26,839 nt of DNA from a virus, in the IMG/VR virus record IMGVR_UViG_3300020395_000085, positions 1 to 26,839 of that record; one strand, 5' to 3'. The translations under genes were made by a program, and so were the position numbers. Below, piece after piece: positions 605 through 22,766 of the stretch (positions within the stretch are counted from its first letter, which is position 1; each line of letters opens with the position of its first letter). Under the pieces are notes generated by a model. It did not search any database. It saw nothing but the letters and a program-made list of their open reading frames with translations, and was not told the DNA's origin.

Positions 605-1065
605 TGCCGATTACACCTGAGATGCTCCAGCGGTCGCGAGCAATGAAAGCAAGTGACCGCTGGACTTCTTACGTTCGTGAGCAGTACCCGCCTGCTTCGG
701 ATGCGCGTGTTGTTGTGGCATTTGACAGCGAGCTGGCACGGTGGATTTTATGTTACGACACTGAAGATGTTGTAGTTACCTCTGCCGGTCCAGCCCGTTG
801 TCGATACCTCAAAGCATTCTATGTTTGGGCTGGACCCAACGATTCATACCTAGAGCCTGGGCCTGCTGTGATTCGATGGCTGCGAGATCATGATCTTTAT
901 TCTGAAGAAAGCGTTGGCGAATGGGAGGATGCTCACTTTGCGCCTGTTGCTGCAGAGAAAAAGCGCCGAGAAGCCAACGCATGGGACGATGTGAGATACG
1001 AAATGAAGCAACTCTACAATGCATCAGGCGGTGTCATTAAAGAGTTTGTTGGGGGTGTGCGTTGA
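604..1065 (+). CDS. Hypothetical phage structural-region protein
   Basis: A 153-residue protein that I do not recognise. It starts with ATG in a TAATG overlap with the upstream beta-helix gene and its TGA lies inside the next start (TTGA), so it is embedded in the tail operon. The sequence is soluble, with a beta-rich middle (VVVAFDSELARWILCY at about residues 36-51), aromatic residues, and a charged helical C-terminal third rich in E, K, R and W. There is no signal peptide, membrane segment or metal motif. By position it could be a small tail-completion or chaperone-like protein, but that is only inference. Confidence 0.75.
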   Translation: MPITPEMLQRSRAMKASDRWTSYVREQYPPASDARVVVAFDSELARWILCYDTEDVVVTSAGPARCRYLKAFYVWAGPNDSYLEPGPAVIRWLRDHDLYSEESVGEWEDAHFAPVAAEKKRREANAWDDVRYEMKQLYNASGGVIKEFVGGVR

Positions 1066-1781
1066 ACCTTGGTGAAATGAAAGTATTAGCCAGAGATCTT
1101 CTTGGTGAAAAAGGAGAGTACTGGCCTAGCGCACAGATGGACAGGATAGCAAACACCGCCAACAGAATGGTCTATCGTTCTGTAACCAACATTGACCCAT
1201 CTTATTTTGGTGAGTCAAAGCGGATAACATATCCAGCAGATGCAACAGAGGTGTCTCTCGATAACGTAAGCTACCTTGGGACTAGCCCATATAAGGTTCT
1301 TGATGTTGCACACCTCGGCACAGATGCGGCGGTGTCTAGTTCAAACCAGCCGGTGTCGCTTGAATACATCCGACCTGACGAACAATACAACTCACCGTCC
1401 ACTTTGCATGACCCTCACTTTCACCAGTATGGTTCTCGGTTTTATCTTCGTTGGACTCTTGAGGGAGACAACGACTTAAAGCTAATTAGCGTGCCCGCGA
1501 GTGAAGTCTATCTGTATGTTCGTTATGTCAGGCACCCAAGAACGTTGTCTGGTTCAACCGATGAGCTTCTTCACCCAGACAACGCAGTGGCTGCAACAAC
1601 TTCATATGCAGAAGAGTTTCATGACTTGGTTTTAGTTACATTTACCAAGCTACTTACGATGAAAGAAAGACGGCAGGGCGGAGAGATTACTGAGCTGTAT
1701 GTGTGGGTTCAGAATGAAGTGCGTCAAGCTGAGAACACCCGGTCTAATACTTCAAAGATGCTATATGAGTCACCTTACTAA
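1062..1781 (+). CDS. Head-tail adaptor candidate (SU10-type adaptor family)
   Basis: A 239-residue protein starting with TTG in a TTGA overlap with the previous stop; no in-frame ATG lies close to this point except codon 6, and the overlap pattern of the neighbours favours TTG. The N-terminus, MNLGEMKVLARDLLGE, followed by an alpha-helical segment ending near ANRMVYRS and then beta strands (YLYVRYVRHPR), resembles the adaptor proteins that sit under the portal in SU10-like podoviruses, where the N-terminal helices bind the portal and the rest contacts nozzle and fibres. The C-terminal part is helical (FHDLVLVTFTKLLTMKERR). The next gene is the nozzle candidate, the expected neighbour. Family assignment is by recall of sequence style, not by search. 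Confidence 0.6.
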   Translation: MNLGEMKVLARDLLGEKGEYWPSAQMDRIANTANRMVYRSVTNIDPSYFGESKRITYPADATEVSLDNVSYLGTSPYKVLDVAHLGTDAAVSSSNQPVSLEYIRPDEQYNSPSTLHDPHFHQYGSRFYLRWTLEGDNDLKLISVPASEVYLYVRYVRHPRTLSGSTDELLHPDNAVAATTSYAEEFHDLVLVTFTKLLTMKERRQGGEITELYVWVQNEVRQAENTRSNTSKMLYESPY

Positions 1782-4021
1782 TGCCGCAACACTTTATAAA
1801 GGGACCGTTCAAGGGAATTGAAGAGCGCGAGTCGTTCCAGACAGAGCAGCACCTTGAGACAGCAATCAATGTTAACCTTAGCAGGGGTTATATTGAGCCT
1901 CGCCCAGCCAAGCACTGGCGGTGGTTAATAAAAACAGATGGCGTGTTTATGACGCCAACGGAATACATCAACCTATCATACGGCCAGCTACACCTGTCTG
2001 ACAGAGAGGGGCAGCAAAACCCCTACCTGCTTATTGTTGGTCCGTCTAGTTTGGCGGGCGGGGTGCCCACTGTTTATTGGGTTGACCTGAACACAAACGT
2101 TATAAATTCAGCAACAATGGACGCCTGCAAAACGGCAGACCAGAAATTTACGTGTGGGTTTGTTGACGCAATTCTTCCAGGCGCCAGGTTCGCAACCATA
2201 ATAACAACACGAGATGCTGTTTATGTGTTTTCGCCCGGAAACGAGAACTCAGAATCCGCAACACTTCGCCTTGTTAACATGACCAGCTATGGCACAGAGG
2301 GTGGAGATGCTGGCCGGTACTACGACGACCTGTACTTCTATGGCGCATCGCCCCCCGTTGGGGACATTGTAGAAACCCACATGGCGATGACATGGTACGC
2401 GGGTTTTTCTGGTGAGCGTATAATGAAGTTCACCGGGGACGTGGCCACCCGCCAAGACTTCTTAGATCAGAACATAGTTATCCCAGCACAAAACGGAATC
2501 CTGCTAACCAAGTATATGTTCTGCTCTGGCGATCCGAACGACCCGCTGTCTATCAACGAGACACTTATGCGGACAATGCCCGGACTGAGCGAAATAACCG
2601 GACTGCTTTCCTTTAAGGACTTTTTATATCTGTTCACTCGCGACTCCATATGGGCGCACGTTGACATGAAAAGAACATGGAAAGTATCAACCGTTGGATG
2701 TACTGCGCCAAGGTCAATTATACAGGCCAGAGACAAGTTCTATTTTGTGAACAACGATGGCATCTGGGTGAGCAACGGAAGTGATGTCCAGAGGATATCA
2801 GATCCCATAGGGTCTTTGTTTTCTGATGCGCCAGAGGCGGACTATATTCCAGACATCCTTGCATACAACAACCATCAAACGTTTGTTGGCTACGGAATGC
2901 ACAACCAAGGGGCTGCGACTTTCTGGGGGATGCCGTGGCGGATTGACAAGTCAAGGCTTCATAGCTGCACGGCAGTTCATTATCAAAAAGCCAATCAGAT
3001 CTGGTTCAACGTGCCAATACGCGGGATCCAGGGTGTTCATGACGGGGAAGCCCGTGAGCCTTCGTTTATTCTTAGGCCAAATGCATTGACCATTGTCTAT
3101 GACTACGAGTTGAATGCATTTACCTACTACATTGATGACAATTTGAAGACCTCTGCCTTTTGCACCGATGGCGTGTATTGGGACAAGGGCGACACAATGT
3201 TTGTTCTGTCTTCTTTTTCTGATGGCAGCGGTGGAGATCCGGTCGGTTGTCGTCTTGAAACGTTTGGTCACCCAGGGAAAGATAGCGTGACACTGGGTTA
3301 CCACGTGAGCGCCCTAAGTGACATATACCCAAAGATCAGATCAACAGCATATGTGTGGAGTACGACAAAGCTGTTTAGAGATAATCAGCAATTTGCCGAC
3401 ATACGGCGACCTCGGCTGGACATGATGAGCTGGGGCAAGCGGCCAACCTATTTTCACACATTTCCAGGGATTGGCGCAGGTGGAGGCTCTAACGATGTAA
3501 CCGTACCAGCAGGCCCTCAATGGTTTATGGAGACAGAGAATGCCCCGTTCGACACCCATGTTGAAAGGTTTGATTCTACCGGCACAGTGGTTACAGATTA
3601 TCCCGAAAGGTACAGCACGGTTGGGTATCTTCAGACCCACCCCAAGTCTGGCGACCCAGAGCTAAGGCCAGACGGAACTTCTATAGCAACGCCTGACGAA
3701 GCAGAGGTGTCTGGCTTTTTCTGGAGTTCATCTACTTCAACAATGGGGAAGTGGGCCAACAACAGGTCAGACTTGGGCACTGGCGGCGTAGACAAAGAAG
3801 ATACGATGCAGTGGTGTGGTAACGAGTGGTGGTGGCAGCAGCTTTATTTACCCTCTGGTGAAATAAACGGCAAATGGATTCGCTTGGGCGTTGCTCAGAT
3901 CCCAGCGTTTGACGCACCCGGTGGAACCATATCAATGGACGACAGAAGAGAGTTCCCTCCACCCGTTGGCATTGTTAGATCTATAGCCTTTGAAGTAGAG
4001 CCAATGGAGACAGAGAGATGA
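1781..4021 (+). CDS. Tail nozzle / tail tubular B-like protein
   Basis: A 746-residue protein whose ATG overlaps the adaptor stop (TAATG). The start, MPQHFIKGPFKGIEERES, followed by a segment with GYIEPRPAKHW, is the typical opening of nozzle and T7 gp12-like tail tube proteins, in which a short 'GP-x-GI' motif precedes an arginine-proline beta strand. The middle (about residues 275-345) carries propeller-like blades such as FLYLFTRDSIW and FVNNDGIWVSNG, again usual in nozzle proteins. A W-rich stretch (NEWWWQQLYLPSG, about residues 681-693) lies near the C-terminus. Such proteins form the hexameric tip of a short tail, closing the DNA channel. The stop overlaps the next start as ATGA. Confidence 0.65.
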   Translation: MPQHFIKGPFKGIEERESFQTEQHLETAINVNLSRGYIEPRPAKHWRWLIKTDGVFMTPTEYINLSYGQLHLSDREGQQNPYLLIVGPSSLAGGVPTVYWVDLNTNVINSATMDACKTADQKFTCGFVDAILPGARFATIITTRDAVYVFSPGNENSESATLRLVNMTSYGTEGGDAGRYYDDLYFYGASPPVGDIVETHMAMTWYAGFSGERIMKFTGDVATRQDFLDQNIVIPAQNGILLTKYMFCSGDPNDPLSINETLMRTMPGLSEITGLLSFKDFLYLFTRDSIWAHVDMKRTWKVSTVGCTAPRSIIQARDKFYFVNNDGIWVSNGSDVQRISDPIGSLFSDAPEADYIPDILAYNNHQTFVGYGMHNQGAATFWGMPWRIDKSRLHSCTAVHYQKANQIWFNVPIRGIQGVHDGEAREPSFILRPNALTIVYDYELNAFTYYIDDNLKTSAFCTDGVYWDKGDTMFVLSSFSDGSGGDPVGCRLETFGHPGKDSVTLGYHVSALSDIYPKIRSTAYVWSTTKLFRDNQQFADIRRPRLDMMSWGKRPTYFHTFPGIGAGGGSNDVTVPAGPQWFMETENAPFDTHVERFDSTGTVVTDYPERYSTVGYLQTHPKSGDPELRPDGTSIATPDEAEVSGFFWSSSTSTMGKWANNRSDLGTGGVDKEDTMQWCGNEWWWQQLYLPSGEINGKWIRLGVAQIPAFDAPGGTISMDDRREFPPPVGIVRSIAFEVEPMETER

Positions 4022-4806
4022 GGCGGCGATTTGACTACAACAACAGAGTCAAAAGCAGCGGCCTTGGTCAACCAGACAGCATACATCATTTGATAACAGC
4101 GGAAGATGCGCTTGAGAAAATAGACAACATTGGTGTAACAGTGGCGCCGGGCGAACCGCTAAGTGCAATCATTAGCTCACTGGGCCAACTTGGCGGTCGG
4201 ATATTCCTGACCGAGGGGACACACGCTGTTGTCTCTACCATAGAAATAACAACCCCGGTTCAAATCATTGGGCTAACCCCAGGGCGCACAAGAATAACCC
4301 GCCTTGTTGACTCAACAGACCCAATCATTCGAGTTTCTTCTGACAAGGTAAAGCTAGAGAACATTAGGTTTACAGACACACACCAGAACTCAAACCTAAT
4401 TGAAGTTTATGGTGATGATTGTGACATCAATGATTGCGTCTTTGATTCATTCAAGACAGCAATACACCTGGGATTTAACACAGGGAGAACGCTTTCCCCG
4501 ACAAGAACATCAATTACCAGATGTAGATTTGTTGAGGGCAAAACAACCGGGGTTGCGGGTGGAGATGGAAAAGATATATACTCCCCGGCAATATATTTAA
4601 ATAGTACAACAGAGGCAATCGTCGCTGGCAATCAGCTTGGCGAATACGCCTCCCCTTCTAGTACAGACACAAACGTCATTGAAACCTCTGCAAGTACAAC
4701 AAACTCCACCTTCACAATGAACGTGGCCCCAAGTTGGAATATAAGATATAAAGGGGGGAGTGGAAATGTAAACGCAGGTAATGTAGCAACGGTGGTAACC
4801 TTCTAA
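4018..4806 (+). CDS. Beta-helix tail spike protein
   Basis: A 262-residue protein beginning in an ATGA overlap with the nozzle gene. Residues about 40-90 read as the opening of a pectin-lyase-like fold (GGRIFLTEGTH then VVSTIEITTPVQIIG), the 'generate a feature, then covering strand' pattern of many phage spikes. Rungs follow (VKLENIRFTD, CDINDCVFDS, TSITRCRFVE, AIVAGNQLG). The C-terminal 50 residues are T/S/N-rich and may be the trimer or attachment region. The protein would bind or degrade a surface polysaccharide; catalytic residues are not evident. It is the second beta-helix gene in the first 5 kb, the other lying at the left edge. The N-terminal 40 residues, charged and polar, could dock to the nozzle. 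Confidence 0.75.
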   Translation: MRRRFDYNNRVKSSGLGQPDSIHHLITAEDALEKIDNIGVTVAPGEPLSAIISSLGQLGGRIFLTEGTHAVVSTIEITTPVQIIGLTPGRTRITRLVDSTDPIIRVSSDKVKLENIRFTDTHQNSNLIEVYGDDCDINDCVFDSFKTAIHLGFNTGRTLSPTRTSITRCRFVEGKTTGVAGGDGKDIYSPAIYLNSTTEAIVAGNQLGEYASPSSTDTNVIETSASTTNSTFTMNVAPSWNIRYKGGSGNVNAGNVATVVTF

Positions 4807-5318
4807 TGGCAATCATAACCAAACCACATACGTTCACAGCAGGTCAGGCCGCAGTGGCCAGTGAAGTTAATAGTAACTTTGACACACTTTACTCTGCTGT
4901 TAACGGTGGCCTAGACACAACTAATATATCAACCAATAAGCATCTGATTACATGGACGTTGCAGGCAACGCTTCAGTCGCCTGCGGCTACAGAGTATTTT
5001 TGCATAAGAACCCCATCTGGGATTGGCGCTGTTACGCTTTTGGAGATGAGTGTCATTGCGGGCCAATCAGCAGGAATGGCTGGCCAGATAACAGTTGACC
5101 TGCTTGAAGTAACAAACCCAGCTGGCCCTGCCTTTAGTGCAGCAATAAACACATCGTCTGCAGTATGCACCGCGTTGTTTACCCCAGCAACTGTTACATC
5201 TTTTACGGGTACGGTTGCTGCAAATAAGACCTTGGCATTCAAAGTAGAGTCAACTGCAGCTTGGACAGGCAACAACGTAACACTTTGTCTAATTGGCAAG
5301 TCATTGATTCAATCGTAA
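4806..5318 (+). CDS. Small phage fibre/virion protein
   Basis: A 170-residue protein with an ATG in a TAATG overlap. Its N-terminus (HTFTAGQAAVASEVNSNFD, then LYSAVNG) is a motif that recurs at the start of many phage fibre and virion-surface proteins, where it is thought to mediate attachment or trimerisation. The remainder is a threonine/alanine-rich beta protein (LLEVTNPAGPAFSAAI; TLAFKVESTAAW), like a jelly-roll or receptor-binding head domain. No membrane segment or signal peptide. Position after the spike gene and before the internal virion proteins supports a virion role. The exact place in the particle is inference. Confidence 0.65.
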   Translation: MAIITKPHTFTAGQAAVASEVNSNFDTLYSAVNGGLDTTNISTNKHLITWTLQATLQSPAATEYFCIRTPSGIGAVTLLEMSVIAGQSAGMAGQITVDLLEVTNPAGPAFSAAINTSSAVCTALFTPATVTSFTGTVAANKTLAFKVESTAAWTGNNVTLCLIGKSLIQS

Positions 5319-5328
5319 GGAGAGGCTT

Positions 5329-5736
5329 ATGTCACTTATTTACAAGGCAGAAGATCACAAAAAGTCCAACAAAACTGACACTTCTCAGTTTGGAAAATAC
5401 CTCGGGAAGTTAGGCGCTATTGCAGGAGGGCTTCTCGGTAGCGTGGGTGGGCCTGCTGGAACAGTTATTGGGTCTGCAGCTGGTGGTGCTCTTGGGCTGT
5501 TTGGTGGCGAAAGCGGAAAGGATCAATACCTAAAGCAAATGACCGACAAAGAGCAGTGGATGCCGCTTACTTCTGCCTCAATGGGCGGCGGTGCATTCAA
5601 TTGGACAAACCCCGCCGTAAACCCAATGTTAGAGCGCATGGGTTTTGGTGGAGAAGCCGGAAGGGCGCTCGAAGACGAGTATGAAAAAGAACAAAAGAGA
5701 CAAGCAATAATGTCAATGCTGACAGCGGGGATTTAG
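5329..5736 (+). CDS. Glycine-zipper virion protein (possible ejection/pore protein)
   Basis: A 135-residue protein with a good Shine-Dalgarno, AAGGAG at 5317-5322, overlapping the previous stop and lying 6 bases before ATG. Residues about 28-60 form a glycine/alanine-rich hydrophobic stretch (LGAIAGGLLGSVGG, GTVIGSAAGGALGLFGG), a glycine-zipper pattern able to insert in membranes as packed helices. Flanks are charged; the C-terminus is helical. Proteins of this kind occur among internal virion proteins of podoviruses and are suspected to help open a channel through the host envelope. That role is inference from composition and from the neighbours, three further probable internal virion proteins. 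It could also be a small assembly protein. Confidence 0.65.
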   Translation: MSLIYKAEDHKKSNKTDTSQFGKYLGKLGAIAGGLLGSVGGPAGTVIGSAAGGALGLFGGESGKDQYLKQMTDKEQWMPLTSASMGGGAFNWTNPAVNPMLERMGFGGEAGRALEDEYEKEQKRQAIMSMLTAGI

Positions 5737-7015: not shown

Positions 7016-8317
7016 ATGGCCGTATTTGGAAACATTTTAGATCGAATAGCGAACAAAAAATCAAAGCTGCAGCAGGCCGAGACTGAAAAGCGACGAATTG
7101 ATGAAATGGTGCGGGCAAATAAAGAAGAAGCAGCTCGCCGGGAAAGAGAGTCCTTTCTAAAGCCTGTAATGGAGCAGCGAGCTAGGGACGCTCAAACCTA
7201 TAGCTTGCCTGGCGTAATGGGCCTGGCCAAGGGGGCCGAAGACGAGTTCCGTGCCAAGCGTCAGGAGGGTCGGGCCGTAGCCAAGGAGGACCGCGCAAAG
7301 ACTAAGGAATTCCGCACGGAAGCTTCATTTATTAGAGCACAGCGGCTTGCAGACTCCACCGAAAACCTAAGCAGAATTAAACGAGCACAACTTGCTGGCA
7401 TCCCTCTGGGTGATGTTGAGCTTGTGGGTGGCCCCAGTCCACAAGACAGAGCGAGACTAGCCGCACAGGCAAAGCAGCTTACCAGTCAACAAGTCCTTGA
7501 TAACAAAATGAGAGCGGCTGAACTACAGCTTAGATTTCAATCAACAAACAAGGCCAGAAGGCCAGTAAGCGAGCAAGCGAAAGTTGATCAAGGCGCGGAA
7601 AAAACCTATGCCACTTTACCGGAAACAGTTCTTGCGTTCGATGTGCCAGACGCCACGGAGCCAAAGAAAAAAAGAAACAAAAGCGGCGGCGGCGGCGGCG
7701 GCGGCATGTGGACTCTTTATGCGGGGCAAGAGGTAAGCGAAAAGGGCAAAAAAAGAAGAAGGATTTTTAGCAAGAAGACGCTGCAAGATTCAGCAACAGT
7801 TGACGAAAAGAACAGAATCCGCCTGCTTTATTCTGTTGAGCTAAAGGCCAGAAAGGCAGCAAAAAAAGGCGAGGTCATGGCAGATATTGAAGCGACGAGT
7901 AGGGCGCTTTTGGGCAGGGTTATTAAGGACTCTGGCGACCTTGCTCAGGCTCTCAAAAGCGAGCGAAGGGGCATGTTGAGTGGGATTGCAAACAGGTCTG
8001 GCGCCAAGCGGTATTCGGAGCCAAAGGATGGAACCAAACTACAACGACAAAAGTGGAAAGAGAAACTAAACATTACTTTCTTACCAACCCGTGGATACGT
8101 TACAAAAAAACTTGAGCGGATGGCGAACCAGTGGGCACTAACAAAAGCCGGAAAAAAACCAAGAAGAGGAGACAAGGACGCCGACGGCAATCCGCTATAT
8201 GCTAGCAATGCTGAACACGCAGCAGCGACCGAGGTTTGGGCAAAAGAAGCAAACAGCATTGCGGCGCTTCGCTTGGAGAGACTTAGGGGCGAGTACGGCA
8301 TGGGTGGAACTAAGTAA
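7016..8317 (+). CDS. Probable internal virion protein, K/R-rich with poly-glycine hinge
   Basis: A 433-residue protein preceded by AGGGGG at 7005-7010, five bases before the ATG. It is highly basic and helical: residues about 10-80 are a likely coiled coil rich in K, E, R and Q, followed by similar segments, then a lysine cluster and a run of seven glycines (near residues 224-230) encoded by a perfect (GGC)7 tract, then a second basic domain of about 200 residues. The glycine run looks like a flexible linker between two DNA- or RNA-compatible basic domains. Its place between other internal virion candidates suggests a DNA-packing or ejection role. No homologue is recognised. The TAA overlaps the next ATG (TAATG). 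Confidence 0.6.
   Translation: MAVFGNILDRIANKKSKLQQAETEKRRIDEMVRANKEEAARRERESFLKPVMEQRARDAQTYSLPGVMGLAKGAEDEFRAKRQEGRAVAKEDRAKTKEFRTEASFIRAQRLADSTENLSRIKRAQLAGIPLGDVELVGGPSPQDRARLAAQAKQLTSQQVLDNKMRAAELQLRFQSTNKARRPVSEQAKVDQGAEKTYATLPETVLAFDVPDATEPKKKRNKSGGGGGGGMWTLYAGQEVSEKGKKRRRIFSKKTLQDSATVDEKNRIRLLYSVELKARKAAKKGEVMADIEATSRALLGRVIKDSGDLAQALKSERRGMLSGIANRSGAKRYSEPKDGTKLQRQKWKEKLNITFLPTRGYVTKKLERMANQWALTKAGKKPRRGDKDADGNPLYASNAEHAAATEVWAKEANSIAALRLERLRGEYGMGGTK
7685..7705 (+). repeat. (GGC)7 trinucleotide tract coding for poly-glycine
   Basis: Seven uninterrupted GGC units inside the 433-residue gene code for seven glycines. The tract directly follows an A-rich lysine-coding stretch. Perfect codon repeats of this length change length easily by slippage, and a change would alter the linker without breaking the frame. 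Confidence 0.9.
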
Positions 8318-11300
8318 TGAGCAGGGGTAGGCGCCGTGGCCGAGATGACGAATACCAGAACCCTTTTTCATCTGGTAAGTTTTTTAAGCCAACATCATAC
8401 GGTAGAGAAAAACGGGATTCATACGATGAAATCCTAGAGCTGGCCAATTTACTTGGTGACGACTCCACCACTGCGATTGAAGCGGGGAAAGATGGCCTTG
8501 CCGAGGACGCTCTTGCAGAAGGTTTTAAGATATCTCCAGTCGAACCCCCGCCCGGCCAGCCTGAAGCCCCGGAAAAGCCCACAGTCTTGGACGGTGGCTG
8601 GCTAACAGAGCAAGGGTTCTGGAAGCCAGAGAACGTTGCTAAAGAAGAAGAGATTGCCAAAAAACACTGGCAAGACAAGATCCCCACCGTCAAAAGAGTT
8701 GGCAGGATTTACCGTAGCTTTGGTCGGCAAACTGGAGAAGCAGACGTAACCTTTCCAGATAAAACCGTCAGAAGAATGCCCTATACAGAGGCTTACAAGT
8801 TTATAAAACAGCCAGACGAGACTTGGGCCGACTATGCAGCGCGGCGACAGGCTGAGTCTTCTGGACTAAAAAAAGCACTGCCGTCACTTTATGACAAAGA
8901 CGCACGGGTAATTGATGCGGCAACAGACCCAGTAAAAACAACCAGGAAAACAGCTGCAGGCGTAGTCCAAGAAACAACACCCGGAACGCCCGGCATAGAC
9001 GCAAGTGTCGATGTCCGTGAGCGCCACGGCTTGGTCAAGCAAGAGCCTTACAGCCTTGCCGGTCAGCTGGCAGAGTCCGAAAGTTTGATTGAAAAGGTTG
9101 GAGATGTTGCAGTTTTCGCGGCGTTGCCCTTTTATCAAGCAGGCCTTCGGTTGGCAAAGGACACAGCTGGGGCGTGGAAGGCCGTTGGCGTAAACCCAAC
9201 CACAATCCAGCGGGTTGCACAACGCCAGCTAAACATGATTGCCAAGGCAGGCGGAACTGGGTTTAACCTCATCAACCTTATTTATGAAGCCCCTGACTTT
9301 TTACAAAGCATGCTTCCGACTCTTTCAGAAACCCCCGGAAGGCCGCAGTCATTGCAAGAAAGAAGGGAGGCAAGGCGCCAACGGCTTGGCATAGACAAAG
9401 TAACCCTCGGGGACTACGTTGATTTCAGGATACCCACAGAAGAAGAGCTTCTGAAGCGCGCACAGTACGAACCAAACACAAGAACTGCATTTGGTGACGA
9501 CCAGATAACAAAAAACGAATGGGGCAATCTTGCCGCCTACGCTGCAAACAGAGCGCACATTGTTGGTGACAGCAGTCGGGTGCTTGGTGGTGACTTATCA
9601 GAGCAAGCGCCTGTTGTGGAGCCTATTCACACCTCTTCTGATGTTACTGGGCTTCCGATGCCACAAAAGATGGCTCAAGTTACTTTTGCAAATGGCAAAG
9701 AAGAGGTCATGCCATTAGAGCAGGCCATGGATGTTTTGGCCGAGCACCGAAAGAAAAACCCCAAAGGGCATTGGGAAGAAGAAGAGTGGGATGAGTTTAG
9801 CGCAGATCGGTTTTGGGACAACACTCTCGCAGAAATGGAAGGGCTTGTAAGCATTATCCCTGCAGTTGTGTCTGGAGTAATGTGGGTAGGCTCTGGTCGT
9901 CGATTAGAACAAGTCGCTGGAACCTCTGCCCACTACCTTGTTGGAGAAACTGCGGCATTCACGGGCGAACACTTGGCAATGCTTGCAAAGGGCGACATTG
10001 ACAAGTTTGTTGAAACGGGCCTTATCTCGGCAATTGCAGACGTTGGTCTTCTTTGGGGTGGTGTTTCGACTGCTGCCACTGCCAGGGCAAGTCAATTATT
10101 AAGAAAAGCAGAGCACGCTTCTGGCGCAAGCAACTCAGCATCCAGGATACAGCAGGCTGCTAATAATATTATAATCAACGAAAACCAAGCTGCACAGACC
10201 GGGCGCCAAGGGCAAAGCGCAAGCCGAGCTTCAAAGTCTGCCAATGAGGCAAGTAGGATAAGGAATGAGGTTAGCGAGCTTGAGTCTAAGCTGGCAAAAG
10301 CCGAGGCCGAGCTAAAAAGAGCTGGACAAATCAATAGGCGAGCATCATTTATTGCTGAGTCTTCGTTGTACGAATCAATGGGTGTGGTTGATGAAGCACA
10401 AATTGCAAGACTGCAAGAAGCTGTTGCTAACACAAAGGCCGAATTAGATTCATTGCGACGAAAGTCTGTTGCCGCCGATTTGCTTGCCCAAAAAGCCCAA
10501 GAGCAGTCTGCGCTATTTACGGCTACAGATGAAATCGTTGGCTCTCAAGAGATGCGATTGGGAGGAAAACGCGAGGGTGAAGTATCAAACCTGCCCAGCG
10601 AGCTTCAGGGTCTACATGGAACATATGATGACCTAACCAAAGAGTTAAGCGATGCCATAGAGGCTGAAGGCAGATACCTTAACGAAGCAAGACAAACGCT
10701 AGACATTATAGAGGATGCGGCAAAAACAGAACGGGCTGCTGTGTCTGCTGTTGAAAGACAGTCTATTCATGACCGTTTTGTGTCAAAAAATAAAACTAAG
10801 TCTGCAGACGCTTTAGCACGTGAAGCCATTGCGGGATTGAAAAAGACAGAACCACCTAGCCCAGGCAGAGATCCTGACATTGGCATTAAGCAAGCCCTTG
10901 AGTCCATATCAAAAAGAAGGTCAGACGAGCTAGGGGAGTACACCACTGCGACTGGTGAGCTAAACGACAAAGCGATAGATCTTATTACTAAAGGAAAGCT
11001 TGAGTCCGTGCCTGTAGAGATTTTATACAGGTATCAAAGAAGGATTAGAAATAAGTATCGATCACTAGATAATGGCGAGTTGGGCGCCAACTTAGAACTG
11101 AAGCTAGATGCTCGCCTAAAGGAACGACCAAAGACCCTGAAAGAAGAGGGCTTGATCGCAGGAGGAGACAATCTTCCTAGCCCGCTGAAAATGAAGGCTC
11201 AGGAAATAGCAAAAGAACGAAACCAGCTCCAGTCAAACCTGCGGCTTGCTGGCCATGAAAAAATAAAAAACATTGCAGAGAGATTAGCATCTGGCGAAAT

Positions 11301-14300
11301 GCAGTATGTTGACCTTTTGGCAAAGGGCTGGACCCTTGATGACATTGCTGACTTAGATCGGTTGAGGGCTTTATCTGGACCCTATAGCCCGCTGATGCGA
11401 GGGCAAGCAGAAAAAATAAAAAGGGCAATTGATAGACTAGATAAAAAAGGAGAAGCGGCAGCGCAAGAGCTGAGAAACATCGAATCCGCCAAACAGAAAC
11501 AGGCCGGAAAAGCAGCAGTCCTAAAAGCAAAAGCTGCGGCCAACAACATCAAACAGCTTATGAAAGAGTCGATTGAGAATAGAATCAAAGACTCAATTAA
11601 GCGCAGCCCTGATGATGTGACCCCCCTCCCAATACTAGAAGACTTAAAGGGTGAACCGATCCCTGGTACCGTCCGCACTACAATTGAGTCAGCATCTGAT
11701 GTAGAGGAAAAGCTAAGGGCCGGTCTTGCTAACACAGCAGATGAAATAACCAAAAGATTAGAGGCATTGAAGGCCGAGCAGTCCGCCGTACAAGCCTCTG
11801 CCGTTAGAAGACTAAAAGTAAAAAGATCGACCAAACTTACCCCTGAGCAGAACAGGCTTCTTGATGCGGCGGTTCACTGGGAAGGTGTTGCCCAAGCCAG
11901 CAGACTTCTTCATTACGCCTTTGACCCAGTTGGGTTCATTGGCGCAGGCAACAGAATGAAGAACTGGCTTATTGACAGGTACGGCACAACATATGAAGGC
12001 GCCTTGAGTACGGTAACAAAAGGCACGATTGAAGGCAGTAAACTACTCAGCAAACAAGCGGCACATGAGCTTTTACTTGCGTCAAGATATTGGCTTAGAA
12101 GTCCAACGAGAACAGACTCTGTACCGCTTGCTTTGTACAACGCCTTTGCTCGTGAAGCAGAAGGTGAAATCCACGAGGCGTCATTTAAAATAAGAACAGC
12201 CTTGAAGGAAATATCAGACAATGAAGTTGTTGTCGTAACCAGCGAGGGCGCAAATAACCCTGAAAAATTTATTCAAGATTTGGCGAGCAAGTACAAAACC
12301 ACAGTTAAGACTATTGTTTCAAAAAACAAGCTGGGTCTTGATCCTGGCTTCAGTTGGGATACACGCACTGCAGATGACATACACAAGCAGCTATCAGAGC
12401 TTGGCAAACGCCTTCGAGATCAAAAGAAGGACATTGATCCCAAACTGAATGAAGAAATTACAAGTAGACTGATAGTTGCCATTGACGAGCTTCCTGATAA
12501 AGACATACATAAGCACTATTCCCTGCTTCAGGATATTGTTGAAAACATCGCCGACCAAGGGGATCTTGGCAAACGCCTTCGAGATCGAAAGAAGCGCATT
12601 GATGCCGAACTGAAAGAAGTAATTGCAAACCCATCTAAAATACACTTACAAGAAGGTCAGCGCATTTTAGTCAGGGATGTTGCAAACCCAGAGCGAAGAA
12701 ATAAAAGGGTAACCACCGTATCGCAGGCATTGCATTATGAACATGCCGACCTTACTGAACACGTTACAAGAGAAATTGACGAAATTGGCGGGATAGAGAG
12801 AGTTCGGTTTGTAGCAAATGAAGACTCACCGGACGTATGGAAAGACTGGACAGTTACTGCAAACCACTACCTTGAAATCATAGACCTTTCGAGACAAACG
12901 ACCATTGAGTCTATAGAGCTGGGCCTTCTCAAAGATTTACCTGGGCTGCATGAAATCTGGGCGCCAAACGTTTACCCATTTGAAGCAAGGCTAGAAGCGC
13001 TTGAAAAAAGAGTAAAAGAAAAATGGGGGGCAGAGATTGCCGATGCAAAAAAAACAGGGGCACCTGCCAAGGAAATAGAACGTCTAGAAAAGCAGATGAA
13101 AAATGACCTCGAGCGCAAAACGGTGGATTATAAAATCCGTGAAGCGCAACGAACAACTGGCGGTGGTCAGACCCTTGAGGGAATAGGCGGTGAGTCGCTT
13201 CGACAAAGAAAGTTAGCAGTGCCTGACCCAGAAACGGGCAAAGCGACAATTCCAATTGAAGACAGAATAGATAAATACGGGATGGCAGCCGACCTGTACT
13301 CAACAGCAATGATCGGCATTCTTCGCCAAAAAAGAGACATTGCAACAGCAAGGATGTGGAAGCGAATTGCCAATTCGCCAGACATTATGTCTCACGTAGA
13401 AAAGCCTGGATGGGTGCTAGTAAAAAACACAGACGTTGATGGCACAATGAAGGTAAAAAAATATGGCAACTCGTTGCCAGAAAGATTTTATCTTCACCCA
13501 GACGTATACTGGGATCTCAAGGGAACTGGCCAGATGATGGATTGGTCAAAAAGGCTCCCCGTCCAAGTGCTTTCTCTTTGGAAGGGAATGAAGACCGCAA
13601 TGTCTATTGGTTCGCATGTAACAAATGCGCTAACCAACACCCTTGTCCTTGGTCCAATGGCAGGCCTTTCTCCCTTGAATCCAAATGACGCTAAGTTTTT
13701 CGGGCAAGCTGCCAAAGAATTCTGGACAGGCGGAAGCAGCAAAAGCTACCAGCAGTTTGTTATTGACCAAGGCAGAGGGCCGACTGCACAGATTAACAAA
13801 CTAGAAATGGTGGCCGACACCAAGAAGGCATACGGGGCGCTTTACACAGGTATTTCCGGCCAAAGCAAAAACGCCATGGATACCTTCATTAAAATATTTG
13901 AAATGACAGCTGACCCAGGCAACGAAAAAACCTGGAGTATAGTAAAAAAAGCCATTCCAAAAAAAGCGCAGGCCCTGAAAGATCTCATCATTGATTACCC
14001 TGGTTTATTTTATCAAGCGGGCGACGACTTCTTTCGTTATGCGCTTTACCTAAAAAACACAGCCAAAGGAATGGGCAGCGTAGAAGCGGCACAGGTATCC
14101 AGAAAAGCCTTTGCGGCATACGAATCCATTGCACCAATGTTCCGCATAATGGCGACATCCATGATCGGAAAACCATTCCTTGCGTTTGATGCGGCCATGA
14201 TACCGCAGGTAACAAAATGGATCCGCGATAACCCAGTTCGAGCAAACATCTGGGTAGACTTGTATGAGTCAATGACAGATATAAATTTTGCGGCAAGCGA

Positions 14301-15555
14301 AATGACAGAAGAAAGGTGGGACGAATACCAAAGCAACTTACCCCGCTATGATGTCAATCGAATGGCTGGAATAAGAAAGCTATTCCCAACGCTTGGGCAG
14401 GACGCTCTTGGTCAAGAGCGATATTGGAACTGGCAGCGAATTGCTATTGGCTCAAGATTTTTCCCAGAAAAAGGCGAAGAAGGCTTTAGCCGGGCGCACG
14501 CTACCCGAGCGTTTGCAAGTGAAAGCCCATACGCTGCTGGCTTATATCTTTGGCTTGGTAACCGCGACATTAAGTTTAATAGGTACTATGATCCGGCTGA
14601 CCCAACAACCGATGCCGCAAAAAGCCAATGGGCGTGGCAAACTGCCTTACCGTCCATCGTCCCCGGCGGGTACGCCTGGAACCGAGTAAAAGACTCTGGG
14701 TTTCGCTTCTTTTCAAACAATGAGATCGGCAGGCCGAGGCGCGGAAGACTGACTGCAGAATCTCCTGCAGAAGCTCTTTTGTATTACTTCACAGGGCAAC
14801 GGGTTGCGACATATGACCCCATAGAGCGGGCGGGCCTAAAGAAAGAAGAGGAGAAGTTTGAAAACATATCAATCGAACGAAAAGGGCCTAAAGCCGTCTA
14901 TGAGCGGGCAATCAAATCTTTTGTAAACGATACTCACAGGTTTATAAAAACCCCAGACCAGCTCAGGGGGTTCCTTGAAAAGATAGCGGAAGACCCCAAA
15001 GGCTTGGCCGCAATGAAACAAAACACCATTGACGATGAAGTCAAGGCCGCCTGGGATGCGCGTAACAGCGCACGGCACGCCCGTTTTGCAAAAATCTCAA
15101 TCCGGGCACAAGATCATAGAATGGGCCTTGACCCATCGAGCAGTCCCGCTGCCGTAAAAGCAGCTAACGATGCTACACTAAAAACACTGAACAACATGCT
15201 AAACAAAACCATGGCAACAACCCTGAATAGAAAAGGGAAGCTTTCTGATTTTGGAAAGTACTCAGATGTGCTTGAATTTATTGAAGCTCAAAAAAGAACA
15301 GAAGGCTGGAAAGGGGAGGCCAGGATAACGGTTTACAATAAAATTATTAAAAACCTAACCAAACTTGGTCGCCACAAAGAAGCAGCAGAATTTGTGAGAG
15401 ACTACCTTCAATATCAAAAGCCTGACGCTTACCTTGAGACATGGCATACACTTGATAAGAACAAGAAGAGAAAAACCACATGGTATGAGATGAAATTAAG
15501 AGGTATAAGAAGTAGTCAGAGAAGAGCTATAAAGAAAAGAGCTGGAGTAAACTAA
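8317..15555 (+). CDS. Giant internal virion / DNA-ejection protein candidate (2412 residues)
   Basis: One uninterrupted frame of 2412 codons, starting in a TAATG overlap. The N-terminus is basic. A short motif of the form VTF-x-x-K-x-x-x-MP-x-x-x-A occurs twice, at about residues 144-164 and 455-475. Two hydrophobic segments at about 509-527 (IIPAVVSGVMWVGSG) and 566-587 (ISAIADVGLLWGGV) could insert in a membrane. Residues about 600-1160 are long charged coiled-coil helices. A 20-residue duplication lies near 1362-1436. The region about 1760-1990 (with GDDFFRYALYLKNTAKG and MIGKPFLAFDAAMIP) resembles the 'large polyvalent protein' LPD38-type domain found in giant phage proteins. No lytic transglycosylase or RNA-polymerase motif was found. 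Size, position and helices fit an ejectosome protein; function is inference. Confidence 0.6.
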   Translation: MSRGRRRGRDDEYQNPFSSGKFFKPTSYGREKRDSYDEILELANLLGDDSTTAIEAGKDGLAEDALAEGFKISPVEPPPGQPEAPEKPTVLDGGWLTEQGFWKPENVAKEEEIAKKHWQDKIPTVKRVGRIYRSFGRQTGEADVTFPDKTVRRMPYTEAYKFIKQPDETWADYAARRQAESSGLKKALPSLYDKDARVIDAATDPVKTTRKTAAGVVQETTPGTPGIDASVDVRERHGLVKQEPYSLAGQLAESESLIEKVGDVAVFAALPFYQAGLRLAKDTAGAWKAVGVNPTTIQRVAQRQLNMIAKAGGTGFNLINLIYEAPDFLQSMLPTLSETPGRPQSLQERREARRQRLGIDKVTLGDYVDFRIPTEEELLKRAQYEPNTRTAFGDDQITKNEWGNLAAYAANRAHIVGDSSRVLGGDLSEQAPVVEPIHTSSDVTGLPMPQKMAQVTFANGKEEVMPLEQAMDVLAEHRKKNPKGHWEEEEWDEFSADRFWDNTLAEMEGLVSIIPAVVSGVMWVGSGRRLEQVAGTSAHYLVGETAAFTGEHLAMLAKGDIDKFVETGLISAIADVGLLWGGVSTAATARASQLLRKAEHASGASNSASRIQQAANNIIINENQAAQTGRQGQSASRASKSANEASRIRNEVSELESKLAKAEAELKRAGQINRRASFIAESSLYESMGVVDEAQIARLQEAVANTKAELDSLRRKSVAADLLAQKAQEQSALFTATDEIVGSQEMRLGGKREGEVSNLPSELQGLHGTYDDLTKELSDAIEAEGRYLNEARQTLDIIEDAAKTERAAVSAVERQSIHDRFVSKNKTKSADALAREAIAGLKKTEPPSPGRDPDIGIKQALESISKRRSDELGEYTTATGELNDKAIDLITKGKLESVPVEILYRYQRRIRNKYRSLDNGELGANLELKLDARLKERPKTLKEEGLIAGGDNLPSPLKMKAQEIAKERNQLQSNLRLAGHEKIKNIAERLASGEMQYVDLLAKGWTLDDIADLDRLRALSGPYSPLMRGQAEKIKRAIDRLDKKGEAAAQELRNIESAKQKQAGKAAVLKAKAAANNIKQLMKESIENRIKDSIKRSPDDVTPLPILEDLKGEPIPGTVRTTIESASDVEEKLRAGLANTADEITKRLEALKAEQSAVQASAVRRLKVKRSTKLTPEQNRLLDAAVHWEGVAQASRLLHYAFDPVGFIGAGNRMKNWLIDRYGTTYEGALSTVTKGTIEGSKLLSKQAAHELLLASRYWLRSPTRTDSVPLALYNAFAREAEGEIHEASFKIRTALKEISDNEVVVVTSEGANNPEKFIQDLASKYKTTVKTIVSKNKLGLDPGFSWDTRTADDIHKQLSELGKRLRDQKKDIDPKLNEEITSRLIVAIDELPDKDIHKHYSLLQDIVENIADQGDLGKRLRDRKKRIDAELKEVIANPSKIHLQEGQRILVRDVANPERRNKRVTTVSQALHYEHADLTEHVTREIDEIGGIERVRFVANEDSPDVWKDWTVTANHYLEIIDLSRQTTIESIELGLLKDLPGLHEIWAPNVYPFEARLEALEKRVKEKWGAEIADAKKTGAPAKEIERLEKQMKNDLERKTVDYKIREAQRTTGGGQTLEGIGGESLRQRKLAVPDPETGKATIPIEDRIDKYGMAADLYSTAMIGILRQKRDIATARMWKRIANSPDIMSHVEKPGWVLVKNTDVDGTMKVKKYGNSLPERFYLHPDVYWDLKGTGQMMDWSKRLPVQVLSLWKGMKTAMSIGSHVTNALTNTLVLGPMAGLSPLNPNDAKFFGQAAKEFWTGGSSKSYQQFVIDQGRGPTAQINKLEMVADTKKAYGALYTGISGQSKNAMDTFIKIFEMTADPGNEKTWSIVKKAIPKKAQALKDLIIDYPGLFYQAGDDFFRYALYLKNTAKGMGSVEAAQVSRKAFAAYESIAPMFRIMATSMIGKPFLAFDAAMIPQVTKWIRDNPVRANIWVDLYESMTDINFAASEMTEERWDEYQSNLPRYDVNRMAGIRKLFPTLGQDALGQERYWNWQRIAIGSRFFPEKGEEGFSRAHATRAFASESPYAAGLYLWLGNRDIKFNRYYDPADPTTDAAKSQWAWQTALPSIVPGGYAWNRVKDSGFRFFSNNEIGRPRRGRLTAESPAEALLYYFTGQRVATYDPIERAGLKKEEEKFENISIERKGPKAVYERAIKSFVNDTHRFIKTPDQLRGFLEKIAEDPKGLAAMKQNTIDDEVKAAWDARNSARHARFAKISIRAQDHRMGLDPSSSPAAVKAANDATLKTLNNMLNKTMATTLNRKGKLSDFGKYSDVLEFIEAQKRTEGWKGEARITVYNKIIKNLTKLGRHKEAAEFVRDYLQYQKPDAYLETWHTLDKNKKRKTTWYEMKLRGIRSSQRRAIKKRAGVN
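12400..12624 (+). repeat. Direct duplication of a 60-base unit within the giant gene
   Basis: Copies at 12400-12459 and 12565-12624 match at 53 of 60 positions, and the first 22 bases are identical. They are 165 bases (55 codons) apart in the same frame, both coding for a helical unit of the form LGKRLRD-x-KK-x-ID-x-x-L-x-E-x-I. The similarity stops sharply at both ends. Confidence 0.9.
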
Positions 15556-15974
15556 TGGGTGTTAATACTTTCAAACATAAAGTTGCTTTTACGGCAAACG
15601 GTGACAAAGCGACGCTGCGCCTACCAGCAGCATACGACGTAATACAGATTCAGTTTCATCCGGCAGCTGGCCAGACCGCAGCGGCAGGGGACTTGATGCT
15701 CATCGAGGGCGTTGACGAAGACGACGAGACTATCGTACTTCCGGGTGGTTCCGGCGCAGGCGGCGCTTTTCTGTTGAACGCAGATCAAGTTCTCCAGTTT
15801 AGCTGGAAGGGTCCAGCCGTAAAGCTTACCTACACCGAGGTTACTGGCGCACTAAACATGACCGTAAAAGTAAAAACGTTCATGGAAAACTCAGGCGATA
15901 CCGACACGGGAAGTGGCTACCCTACTGCGCTAGCGGCTGCAGCTGGAAACCCAACAAGAACACTAAGGGGCTAA
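15555..15974 (+). CDS. Small beta-rich virion protein
   Basis: A 139-residue protein with its ATG overlapping the stop of the giant gene (TAATG). It is a compact beta protein: VAFTANGDKATLRLPAAYDV at the start, then an acidic loop (VDEDDE) and strands such as LQFSWKGPAVKLTY, with a flexible G/A/T tail containing DTGSGYP. There is no membrane segment or signal. It lies between the giant ejection candidate and a long fibre gene, so a head- or tail-decoration protein or fibre-connector is plausible. I do not recognise a family. The DTGSG-x-P tail motif is shared with the end of the 411-residue protein. Confidence 0.7.
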   Translation: MGVNTFKHKVAFTANGDKATLRLPAAYDVIQIQFHPAAGQTAAAGDLMLIEGVDEDDETIVLPGGSGAGGAFLLNADQVLQFSWKGPAVKLTYTEVTGALNMTVKVKTFMENSGDTDTGSGYPTALAAAAGNPTRTLRG

Positions 15975-15977
15975 CCA

Positions 15978-17411
15978 ATGTCAAGACGCAGTGTAAACAG
16001 GAACTTTATCTCTAGTGCCGGTTCCGAAGCGGCAGAGAATCTTTCAGACGGGACCGTTAGTGGTGGTATTGACATTTCTGGCGCTTTGTCTTTTGACGGT
16101 GCCACGGGTATTACTTCAATAGACACAGACATTAGCAGTGTATCAAGCTCTGACGACACTCTTGCATCGGCTAAAGCCATCAAGACGTATGTTGATTCGG
16201 TTGCAGGCGGTGGCGGTGATATTACTGCTGTGTCACTAACCGGCGACAGCGGCGGCGCACTCAGCGTTGCAAGTGGCTCTGCGGGGTTTACGATTGCGGG
16301 CGGCGAAGGCATTGATACTTCGGGATCATCCACAACAATAACCATTGCAGGTGAAGAGGCTACAACCAGTAACAAGGGTATTGCTTCATTTAGCTCTGAC
16401 AATTTCGATGTCTCATCTGGCGCAGTCACTATCAAAAGCGGCGGCGTTGATTTGAGTGACGAGGTAACGGGGACTTTACCTGTTGACCACGGCGGAACCG
16501 GTGCAACTTCTCTGACAGATAAATCTGTGATGATATCGCAGGACAGCGGCACAGATACATTGACTTCGTTACCGCTTACCGGCAGCGGTGAAATCGTGAT
16601 CGGCGGCGCATCCGGCCCAGCAGCGGCAACACTAACCGCAGGCAGCAACGTCACCATTACAAATGGCGACGGCTCAATTGAAATTTCTGCCAGTGGTGGC
16701 GGTGGCGGTGGCGCTGTATCAGCTGTTGCAAATGGTAGCAACAATCGCATTGCGACATTTAGCAGCAGCGACGCATTGAACGGTGAGGCTAATCTTGAGT
16801 TCGACGGTACCGATCTCAGCATTGCCGCAGCAGGAAAGATTGAATTTAGAGATACCGGCATCTATGCCCAAAGTGACGAAGACGGCCACCTGTCGATCGT
16901 AGCCGATGGCCATGTGACGACCAGCGGATTTCCATCAAACGAGAACAACATCGGCACCTCTGCAACGTCGCTGCCGTCTATTTACGCTCACGCAGGTGAC
17001 GCAACCGGGGAAAAAATAGGCTATCTCACAACGACCGGCGGCGATGCGCTGACAGTCGGTTTGATGTATTACCTAAGCGACCACCCCGAGTGGCACCAAA
17101 CGAGCGCAGTAGATGCCGACGAAGGCGCCGGGGACCTACTAGCCATCGCACTGAATACCAACGCAGCGGCCAACGGCGGCTCTATGCTCTTGCGTGGGCT
17201 TGTCCGGCTTGATTCAGGCGGTTATGTAGGCACGGCGGCAGTAGGCAAGACGGCTTACATGTCAGAGAGCGTCACAGGCAAAATTGATTTCGACAAGCCC
17301 ACAGCATCGGGAAACATTCAAAGGGTAGTCGGGCACTGCGTCCAAAAAGACGGTAGCAACCACATCTTGTTCTACTTCAATCCATCGAATGACTATGGCG
17401 TGGTGGCCTAA
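15978..17411 (+). CDS. Tail/virion fibre protein
   Basis: A 477-residue protein of S/T/G/D-rich beta strands. Landmarks: a shaft-type head with [18 protein letters not shown] (residues about 60-77), a strand repeat region, the motif [15 protein letters not shown] (about 168-182) that is widespread in phage fibre shafts, a six-glycine hinge (about 240-245), and a C-terminal domain of about 170 residues ending NDYGVVA that resembles knobs of marine phage fibres. Such proteins form trimeric fibres that recognise host surface receptors. The ATG is three bases after the previous TAA, and the stop overlaps the next ATG. GC-rich third positions leave a long accidental frame open on the opposite strand. 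Confidence 0.8.
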
Positions 17412-20961: not shown

Positions 20962-22089
20962 ATGGCACGTCAAAGAACAATACAGCCTTCCTTTTGGAAG
21001 GATACAACTACATCTAAATGGCCCACTGATAGCCGATTGCTTTTCATTGCACTATGGAATGAGTCGGATGACTATGGGGTTGTCGAAATAGACCCAACGT
21101 CTTTACACGCTCTTGTTTTCCCAGGTTACAACGTGGATGTGCGCCAAGTGCTGCAGCCACTGGTGAATGACTCCCAATTAAAGCTGTTTGCTCACGAGGG
21201 TAAGCACTATGGCTACATGCCTATTTTTGTAGAGCAGCAGGTCGTTAACAGGAAAAGCAAGAAGCGAAACCCAGAACAAAAAGAGGACTCACTGGTTGCA
21301 TGCTCGGACCTTGAGGTTGATCAGCTTTTTAGCGATGCACAACACTTACTCCAACCGGAGAATGCTGACACTTCAACCGAACACTCAGTGAGTCCTCATG
21401 GAGACTTTCCCCCTCGCGCGCACACACGCGGGCGTAAGAAGAATATTAACTTAACTAGTATTAACTTAAACAAAGAAGAGGAAGATCTTAACGCGCGCGA
21501 GACACCTTCCCCTTCCGTTGTTAGTCGCTTAATGGCGGAAGTTTGGAATCCAGGTAAAGCAACAAAAGCCAAGCAGTACTTCGATTACTATAATGAAGTT
21601 GGCGCAAGAACCACGAAGGGCTGGCATAAAAAACACTGGGACACCTACAAGCTTACGGTAATGGCATGCGTTGGCCTGGTGAACGACTCGGAGATGAAAA
21701 TGATTATCGACTTTGCTGCCACCAATCCAAGGTGCAGGTACAAGGGCAGTGATGATTTATTCATCTACCCTGCGCTTGTTTTTGGCAGACAAGGCGAAGA
21801 CCCTCGGCGAAGGCTGGATGCTCTTCTAAGCCGCGCAAAGCAGTGGCGCTCTTCCCGAGTGGCAAATCAACCAGCGAGCATTCCAGAGCATGAGAAGGAA
21901 AGAAACCGACAGAAAGCCGCCTCTCAGCTCACTTTAATATCCAAAGACCCATTACCCTACCTAAACAGGTTATCGGGCAGTCAGGCCCACAGAACAAAGG
22001 TTTTACAGGGTATATTGCAAGAGCTGCAGAAAAGGAGTGTTGATGGGCAACCCATATTTGACTATTTCAAGGAGGTTTCTCATGCCTAG
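20962..22089 (+). CDS. Replication initiator / replisome organiser-like protein
   Basis: A 375-residue protein. The N-terminus (RTIQPSFWKD, LLFIALWNESDDYGVVEIDP, ALVFPGYNVD, then YGYMPIFVEQQVVN) is the typical winged-helix opening of phage replisome organisers and DnaD-related initiators, covering about residues 1-115. A low-complexity polar linker (about 115-185) contains the NINLTSINLN segment often seen in such proteins, and its DNA carries a candidate origin. Residues about 190-270 make a second domain (SRLMAEVWNPGKATK, GSDDLFIYPALVFGR) likely to contact helicase or DNA. The last 100 residues are helical and basic. It would bind the origin and load host helicase. It starts at the ATG behind the RBS hairpin and opens the early block. 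Confidence 0.75.
   Translation: MARQRTIQPSFWKDTTTSKWPTDSRLLFIALWNESDDYGVVEIDPTSLHALVFPGYNVDVRQVLQPLVNDSQLKLFAHEGKHYGYMPIFVEQQVVNRKSKKRNPEQKEDSLVACSDLEVDQLFSDAQHLLQPENADTSTEHSVSPHGDFPPRAHTRGRKKNINLTSINLNKEEEDLNARETPSPSVVSRLMAEVWNPGKATKAKQYFDYYNEVGARTTKGWHKKHWDTYKLTVMACVGLVNDSEMKMIIDFAATNPRCRYKGSDDLFIYPALVFGRQGEDPRRRLDALLSRAKQWRSSRVANQPASIPEHEKERNRQKAASQLTLISKDPLPYLNRLSGSQAHRTKVLQGILQELQKRSVDGQPIFDYFKEVSHA
21380..21393 (+). promoter_or_regulatory. Second copy of the operator-like palindrome inside the initiator gene
   Basis: These 14 bases are identical to 20914-20927 in the upstream promoter region; here the palindrome core is ACTCA-G-TGAGT. Both copies have TGACA shortly upstream. This copy codes for residues around HSVS in the linker and lies 20 bases before the candidate origin. 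Confidence 0.4.
21413..21501. other. Candidate replication origin within the initiator gene
   Basis: A perfect 9-base inverted repeat, CTCGCGCGC (21413-21421) and GCGCGCGAG (21493-21501), brackets an A/T-rich core that contains the direct repeat TATTAACTTAA at 21444-21454 and 21459-21469. GC arms around an A/T-rich core in the linker of an initiator gene recall the lambda origin inside gene O. It is also possible that it is simply low-complexity linker coding sequence. Confidence 0.4.
22069..22075 (+). promoter_or_regulatory. Strong ribosome binding site fixing the nuclease start
   Basis: AAGGAGG is a full-strength Shine-Dalgarno six bases before the ATG at 22082. The same reading frame is open further upstream to an ATG at 22037 without a comparable site, so 22082 is the better start. 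Confidence 0.8.
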
Positions 22090-22728: not shown

Positions 22729-22766
22729 TTTTTCGTATTGACCTCTCCCAAAAAACCACTTAAGAT
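22717..22766 (+). promoter_or_regulatory. Strong sigma70-like promoter with UP-like element before the Fe-S nuclease
   Basis: TTGACC (22738-22743), a 17-base spacer and TAAGAT (22761-22766) match the consensus at five of six and four of six positions with ideal spacing. The preceding A-tract and T-tract (22717-22733) resemble an UP element. The expected start is near 22773, and an in-frame GTG is at 22774. The TTG of this -35 is also the first possible start of the downstream gene. Confidence 0.55.

Follow-up and report, generated by a model that had tools for sequence, protein, structure and literature searches.

In phage T7, gp14 forms the pore in the outer membrane, gp15 the tunnel through the periplasm, and gp16 the part in the inner membrane and cytoplasm; infectivity requires the basic C-terminal residues of gp16 (available text of PMC8954989). 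The same text describes gp16-type proteins as a family that diverges beyond sequence similarity, and P22 gp16 as being without a transglycosylase domain. A second kind of giant phage protein is the DarB-like proteins with an LPD38 domain, among them JC1 gp69, the sister of BcepIL02 gp70, for which purified virions gave 51 unique peptides (PMC9144972, Table 6). Here we describe the largest gene of a virus sequence of 26839 bases, a single record (IMGVR_UViG_3300020395_000085) referred to below, at its full length, as the window. Its 2412-residue product, P0001 or the giant, most likely serves an uncultured short-tailed phage as its largest ejection protein, an internal virion protein that would aid DNA delivery into the bacterium. 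A virion-associated role in DNA delivery, already proposed in a sequence-only reading of the window, is well supported because of the gene order and because the giant has a module in common with giants that have virion or pre-ejectosome relatives. The same reading had the giant possibly form the tube that carries the DNA. This part is not supported, since the T7 model assigns the periplasmic tunnel to gp15 and the inner-membrane and cytoplasmic part to the largest protein, gp16 (PMC8954989, available text); a tube is not the likeliest role of the giant.

The 2412-residue open reading frame (ORF) is a real gene. It takes up 7239 of the 26839 bases (27.0%), in agreement with the earlier statement that one gene fills more than a quarter of the window. 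TAATG overlaps couple it to its neighbours, the 433-residue gene at its start and a 139-residue gene at its end. The gene order is adaptor, nozzle-like protein, repeat-rich and short fibre-like genes, proteins of 135, 411 and 433 residues, and giant (Table 1). Like T7 gp16, the giant closes a cassette of small, mid-sized and large internal proteins and is its largest member. Its position behind an adaptor, a nozzle, a Gly-zipper protein and two proteins of middle size is the one usual for an ejection protein. Homologues of the 411- and 433-residue proteins occupy the same places in three related records (L085, L144 and G004), which argues that the cassette is inherited as a block. On the 3′ side of the giant lie the 139-residue gene, fibre-like genes and genes for an endolysin and a spanin-like protein. 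The nozzle gave no match when searched against phages.

Contig L001 overlaps the window over 19.1 kb at 99.9% identity, and contig L010 supplies the upstream genes, encoding TerL, a portal (phrog_156, E 1.5e-51), a scaffold-like protein and a major capsid protein (phrog_14242, E 2.2e-35). Relatives of the portal and the capsid protein (~24-27% identity) occur in named phages, among them Arthrobacter phage Jasmine, Microbacterium phage Shocker and Cellulosimicrobium phage DS1. In all three, adaptor, nozzle, small, mid-sized, mid-sized and giant genes follow one another in the order of the window. Their giants belong to phrog_36598, a family of unknown function. Among 57 capsid relatives, seven loci carry such a Jasmine-type giant downstream, and many loci stop before that place.

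Homologues of the giant itself were found in three other viral records. One, in L002, has 2392 residues and is 95% identical to P0001. A scan with a capsid alignment yielded L082-L085, with capsids 64% identical, and one such record, G004, holds the homologue P0003 (G004/L143; 2345 residues); a scan with the conserved region of the giant added L144g in L144 (2264 residues). Over P0001 residues 1160-2260 these two are ~36% and 35% identical to it, respectively. Identity between P0001 and P0003 peaks in residues 1661-1990 (145 of 317 aligned residues) and is lower elsewhere, from 49/254 in residues 621-940 to 67/177 in residues 1991-2170 (~19-38%). Residues 1661-1990 are also the most constrained part between P0001 and L002 (pN 0.0013, pS 0.0234). 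Overall dN/dS for this pair is 0.70, without a clear purifying signal, and the purifying signal comes from residues 1661-1990 and from the pair P0003 and L144g (pN 0.27, pS 0.75, saturated). Differences between P0001 and L002 are concentrated at residues 1-60, 821-850 and 1346-1438.

P0001 had no match at E <= 0.01 among phages or at E <= 1 among plasmids, and residues 1162-2412 gave two chance-level phage matches only (E 5). Genome contigs scanned with P0001 produced 16 pattern matches and no relatives, and those scanned with the Jasmine-type alignment six pattern matches and no relatives; thus no prophage relative was seen with either pattern. Three proteins without a convincing BLAST match to P0001 were dropped, namely UOF80550 and UOF78512, both giants from Manatee Spring, and gp35 of CRP-7.

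The most conserved part of the giant was compared with the Jasmine-type proteins by profile alignment. A seed alignment of the giants of DS1, Shocker and Jasmine with UOF81946 found relatives in 57 viral loci, all 57 with ORFs containing the module, and of the resulting 61 sequences 48 remained after reduction to 85% identity. The window family matched this 48-sequence profile in hhalign with P 1.5e-7 (prob 94, score 76). The reversed control scored 23, the best of 25 column shuffles 28 and the best of 25 block shuffles 31, and unrelated capsid and portal alignments scored 22 in the same comparison. As the window family was deepened, P went from 4.4e-4 (window and L002) to 2.8e-7 (with P0003) and 1.5e-7 (with L144); when the target was the four full-length seed giants, P was weaker with four window-family members (3.9e-5) than with three (1.1e-6). 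The match is collinear, with GW..V, LPxxFYLHPDVYWD, WKxxKT...H.TN, GDDFFR and KPFLAFD...IP of P0001 aligned to GFV, LP..vY.d..iA, WK.G.TI.RPGHHIRN, RDH.vR.AHFID and IPFYSW.RKAIP of the relatives. On these profile comparisons, residues ~1665-1984 are judged homologous to the C-terminal module shared by the giants of Jasmine, Shocker and DS1. The giants of these three phages are shorter (1743-1803 residues) and end soon after the module, and their family, unlike the window giant, has no consistent basic tail; no similarity to the window giant was detectable outside the module.

The Jasmine-type family in turn connects the module with the DarB-like proteins. Six proteins from 133 records with an LPD38-region match were used in a profile. 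The 48-sequence Jasmine-type profile matched these six DarB-like/LPD38 C-termini with P 3.1e-6 and a score of 61.7, versus 28.8 or less in controls, over 323 columns reaching into LPD38. The region matched in BcepIL02 gp70 and JC1 gp69, which are late virion genes, is that with and before LPD38. An AlphaFold2 (AF2) model of a relative's module (596 residues; alignment A8, from 33 of the 48-sequence loci; pLDDT 83.0, pTM 0.72) gave 34 matches in BFVD at E <= 0.001. Eleven of these bear the name 'Large polyvalent protein associated domain-containing protein', 12 are nameless and two are named members of the module's own family. LPD38 itself (PF18857, Pfam cut-off 27 bits) had no match to P0001 at E <= 10; the positive control, LPD38 in BcepIL02 gp70, scored 126.8 bits. 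The LPD38-like C-terminal region of the sequence-only reading has therefore held in part: the module is linked to LPD38 proteins through an intermediate family, and direct tests of P0001 did not detect the domain. Because the P0001 alignment stops at residue 1984, LPD38 at residues 1991-2170 is a positional guess. No statement describing LPD38 C-termini as ejectosome modules was found in the literature searched, which left out most subscription papers and bioRxiv preprints.

A third group is reached through structure. Foldseek comparison of the relative's AF2 model with the PDB yielded 49 matches with E up to 10, not one of them at E <= 0.001. When 400 PDB chains were re-aligned, 9k3a_A ('Cyanophage A4 pre-ejectosome with C1 symmetry'), which came up at this second stage only, ranked first (Z 4.8, root mean square deviation 4.8, 155 residues). 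This chain is identical to ORF26 of Anabaena phage A-4L, and chain B is ORF27. ORF26 (1114 residues) is the large gene that ends a cassette of adaptor, nozzle and internal proteins, and has no direct match to the window giant. The BFVD entry A0A059PYE1 of A-4L, which has the length of ORF26, ranked 27th of the 34 matches (E 2.9e-4). In profile comparison, ORF26 matched the shorter giants with P 7.5e-6 (prob 84), all giants with 3e-4 and the long giants with 1.4e-3; reversed ORF26 gave P 0.33 against the all-giants profile. ORF27 and ORF28 matched none of the profiles tested. These three related tests make the link to the ejectosome through 9k3a suggestive.

Several results weigh against reading the giant as an ejection protein. 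HMMER alone would have missed the module, since with the 48-sequence profile it scores P0001 negative overall, the sole scoring stretch being residues 1678-1770 (4.8 bits), and the phrog_36598 profile, which matches 33/33 relatives scanned, does not match P0001. Neither P0001 nor its four-sequence profile matches LPD38 proteins directly (hhalign P 0.52), and the window family's own profile has no match to A-4L ORF26-28. Only three of 15 comparisons between profiles and A-4L proteins stand out, all of them ORF26 with Jasmine-type profiles. The Z of 4.8 is only 0.1 above that of a designed protein, and values under 8 can reflect nothing more than a shared arrangement; 9k3a is therefore suggestive and not proof. 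Since the AF2 model of P0001 residues 1160-2260 from four sequences reached only pLDDT 38.9 and pTM 0.24, the structural evidence concerns the relatives. No match of P0001 or its profile was found with hhalign to T7 gp15-16 and SU10 gp23-24, or with HMMER to T7 gp14-16 and SU10 gp20-24. Finally, neither the giant nor the three smaller genes directly upstream yielded a peptidoglycan hydrolase.

The two hydrophobic segments of the sequence-only reading were recovered and refined to residues 509-527 and 569-587, and their spacing of 60-61 residues is kept in the distant homologues P0003 and L144g. A third such segment (residues 1944-1962, mean 1.31) lies inside the conserved module. The last 20 residues carry a net charge of +7 to +8 in all four homologues, comparable to the basic C-terminus of T7 gp16. 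The long coiled coils of the sequence-only reading received weak support: 5/43 windows of 56 residues, scattered ones, reached p <= 0.02 in a crude heptad analysis. Residues 617-728 are rich in AEKRQL.

Residues 1301-1456 are predicted to contain a LysM-like fold in degenerate form, interrupted by an insertion. LysM (PF01476) scored 14.6 bits in P0001, under the cut-off of 20.9, the GDT motif is missing and the fold is broken by ~90 residues, so that the signal could be due to chance and the segment be ordinary helical sequence. We consider this the less likely reading, as LysM reached 21.8 and 20.8 bits in two relatives when the segments were cut out (16.1 and 14.7 bits in the whole proteins), and as a PDB search with a three-homologue profile returned LysM or wall-binding proteins as the seven best of 13 matches (best E 7e-8 for a whole sequence, 0.014 for a single stretch). 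AF2 also places a strand (1303-1306), two helices (1315-1325 and 1330-1336) and a late strand (1449-1452) in the region, in a model with pLDDT 38.9 overall and block means of 53-75 in the first part of the region. The order of elements is that of LysM with the insertion ahead of the final strand. This insertion is one of the most variable parts of the giant. It contains a 67-nt near-repeat (12397-12463 and 12562-12628, 87% identical), the first copy of which is absent from L002, indicating a recent duplication or deletion.

The earlier observation that the giant shows no known enzyme motif was borne out, and the unrecognised enzymatic part that it allowed for was not found. Judged from four sequences, Pfam, PHROGs and PDB searches revealed no enzyme domain: no Pfam family fell below E 0.2, no PHROGs family below E 0.04, and no PDB sequence matched P0001 up to E 10. 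Sub-threshold Pfam matches (YicC, DUF2379, CbbQ_C and others) were judged compositional. The sole extra domain signal is that of the putative wall-binding fold. These searches bear on the possibility that the giant belongs to the polyvalent effectors as defined by Iyer and colleagues, in which case it would be injected and would work inside the host by means of enzyme domains that have diverged past recognition. Polyvalent proteins have been proposed to be packaged and injected (PMC5512222, available text), and an indirect relationship joins the C-terminal module of the giant to the LPD38 region of DarB-like members. We consider this unlikely, given that Pfam and PHROGs gave none of the several enzyme domains of different activity that mark a polyvalent protein, and that the giant is poorly conserved outside its core. 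The DarB-like proteins exceed 4000 residues and have transglycosylase-like, methylase- and helicase-like domains (JC1 table, as available), which the window giant lacks. That the giant is instead a structural protein of the tail or tape-measure kind, retained in the particle and not injected, is very improbable: it is large, helical and among several structural genes in a row, and the annotation of A-4L ORF26 is tail fibre protein, with its PDB chain named Tail protein, but the upstream adaptor and nozzle are of the short-tailed type, no tail-tube or sheath gene was recognised in the window or in a 13.9 kb overlapping contig, and 9k3a is titled a pre-ejectosome.

As an ejection protein, the giant is probably a counterpart of gp16 without the enzyme, anchored in the inner membrane, and more than a tube. 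This placement is by analogy with T7, and follows from the spaced hydrophobic pair, the basic tail and the wall-binding-like fold in place of a transglycosylase. T7 gp16 has an N-terminal transglycosylase, for which neither Pfam nor PHROGs gave a match in the giant; T7 and P22 gp16 share its cassette place and have hydrophobic regions to which the two conserved segments of the giant may correspond. The gp16 sequence comparison covered T7, and with this single sequence as target no match to P0001 was obtained. Several copies of the giant would most likely sit in the capsid beside the portal and pass out through the nozzle, either ahead of the DNA or together with it. With the upstream 135-, 411- and 433-residue proteins, they would help to build the DNA-delivery complex. 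The hydrophobic pair at 509-587 may insert in the inner membrane and the LysM-like fold touch peptidoglycan, with the C-terminal module and basic tail serving as a capsid-core part and later as a DNA-handling part.

An indirect but controlled link thus joins three groups of giant phage proteins, and LPD38-type C-termini may be ejectosome core modules. The LPD domains were named for their unknown function, and among the giants with such a module are DarB-like anti-restriction proteins that had been known solely for the anti-defence enzymes they carry. We tentatively suggest that phage giants of unrelated appearance have a general ejectosome-core carrier in common, made up of the ~320-residue module with LPD38 or its counterpart behind it. 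DarB-like proteins would then be ejectosome core proteins to which enzyme cargo was added, and the window giant a cargo-free version with a split LysM-like wall-binding fold. If so, the packaging and injection of polyvalent effectors would become directly testable, and many 'hypothetical' phage giants would gain a role. For the phage group of the window, the largest gene receives a label.

Table 1. Positions in the window of the giant gene, its parts and the preceding tail and cassette genes
Feature	Position	Strand	Remarks
Tail adaptor (Pfam SU10_adaptor)	1062..1781	+	30.0 bits, cut-off 27
Tail nozzle-like protein, 746 aa	1781..4021	+	phrog_3287, E 1.5e-4; homologue in L085
Small Gly-zipper protein, 135 aa, gp14-like by position	5329..5736	+	Gly-zipper E 0.0036, under cut-off; PHROG matches to Gly-rich stretches
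Mid-sized ejection-cassette protein, 411 aa	5739..6974	+	homologues in L085 (E 9e-7) and L144 (E 2e-5)
Mid-sized ejection-cassette protein, 433 aa	7016..8317	+	homologues in L144 (E 4e-5) and G004 (E 8e-4)
Giant gene, P0001, 2412 aa	8317..15555	+	ATG start; no internal stop
Variable N-terminus, residues 1-60	8317..8496	+	28/46 aligned residues identical to L002; ~96% in the rest
Hydrophobic segment 1, residues 509-527	9841..9897	+	Kyte-Doolittle 19-mer mean 1.63; conserved in P0003 and L144g
Hydrophobic segment 2, residues 569-587	10021..10077	+	Kyte-Doolittle 19-mer mean 1.48; conserved in P0003 and L144g
Putative LysM-like first half (degenerate), residues 1301-1345	12217..12351	+	strand and two helices; Pfam, profile, AF2
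Variable insertion in LysM-like fold, residues 1346-1438	12352..12630	+	holds the 67-nt near-repeat
Putative LysM-like last strand, residues 1439-1456	12631..12684	+	AF2 and homologue comparison
Conserved core module, residues 1665-1984	13309..14268	+	homologous, by profile, to C-terminus of Jasmine-type giants; most conserved part
Position of LPD38 in DarB-like proteins, residues 1991-2170	14287..14826	+	position only
Basic C-terminal tail, residues 2393-2412	15493..15552	+	net charge +8; +7 in P0003, +8 in L144g

Other features of the window and its relatives were noted. Two repeat-rich genes lie near the tail genes, at 5-604 and 4018-4806, the first being longer (294 residues) in L001; both have the look of a beta-helix, presumably of the pectate-lyase-like kind. 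L085 has two short fibre-like paralogues (15607-16709) where the window has one (4806-5318). A Pro/Ser/Val-rich open frame of 296 residues on the minus strand (15971-16861) runs antisense to the fibre-like gene 15978-17411 and has the appearance of an antisense artefact. Minus-strand open frames of ~750 residues across the capsid gene region of three capsid relatives (L119, L125 and L132) are probably also antisense artefacts. By PHROG matches, 20962-24972 is a replication and recombination block with an initiator-like protein, a RusA-like resolvase, an exonuclease, a Sak4-like annealing protein and SSB.
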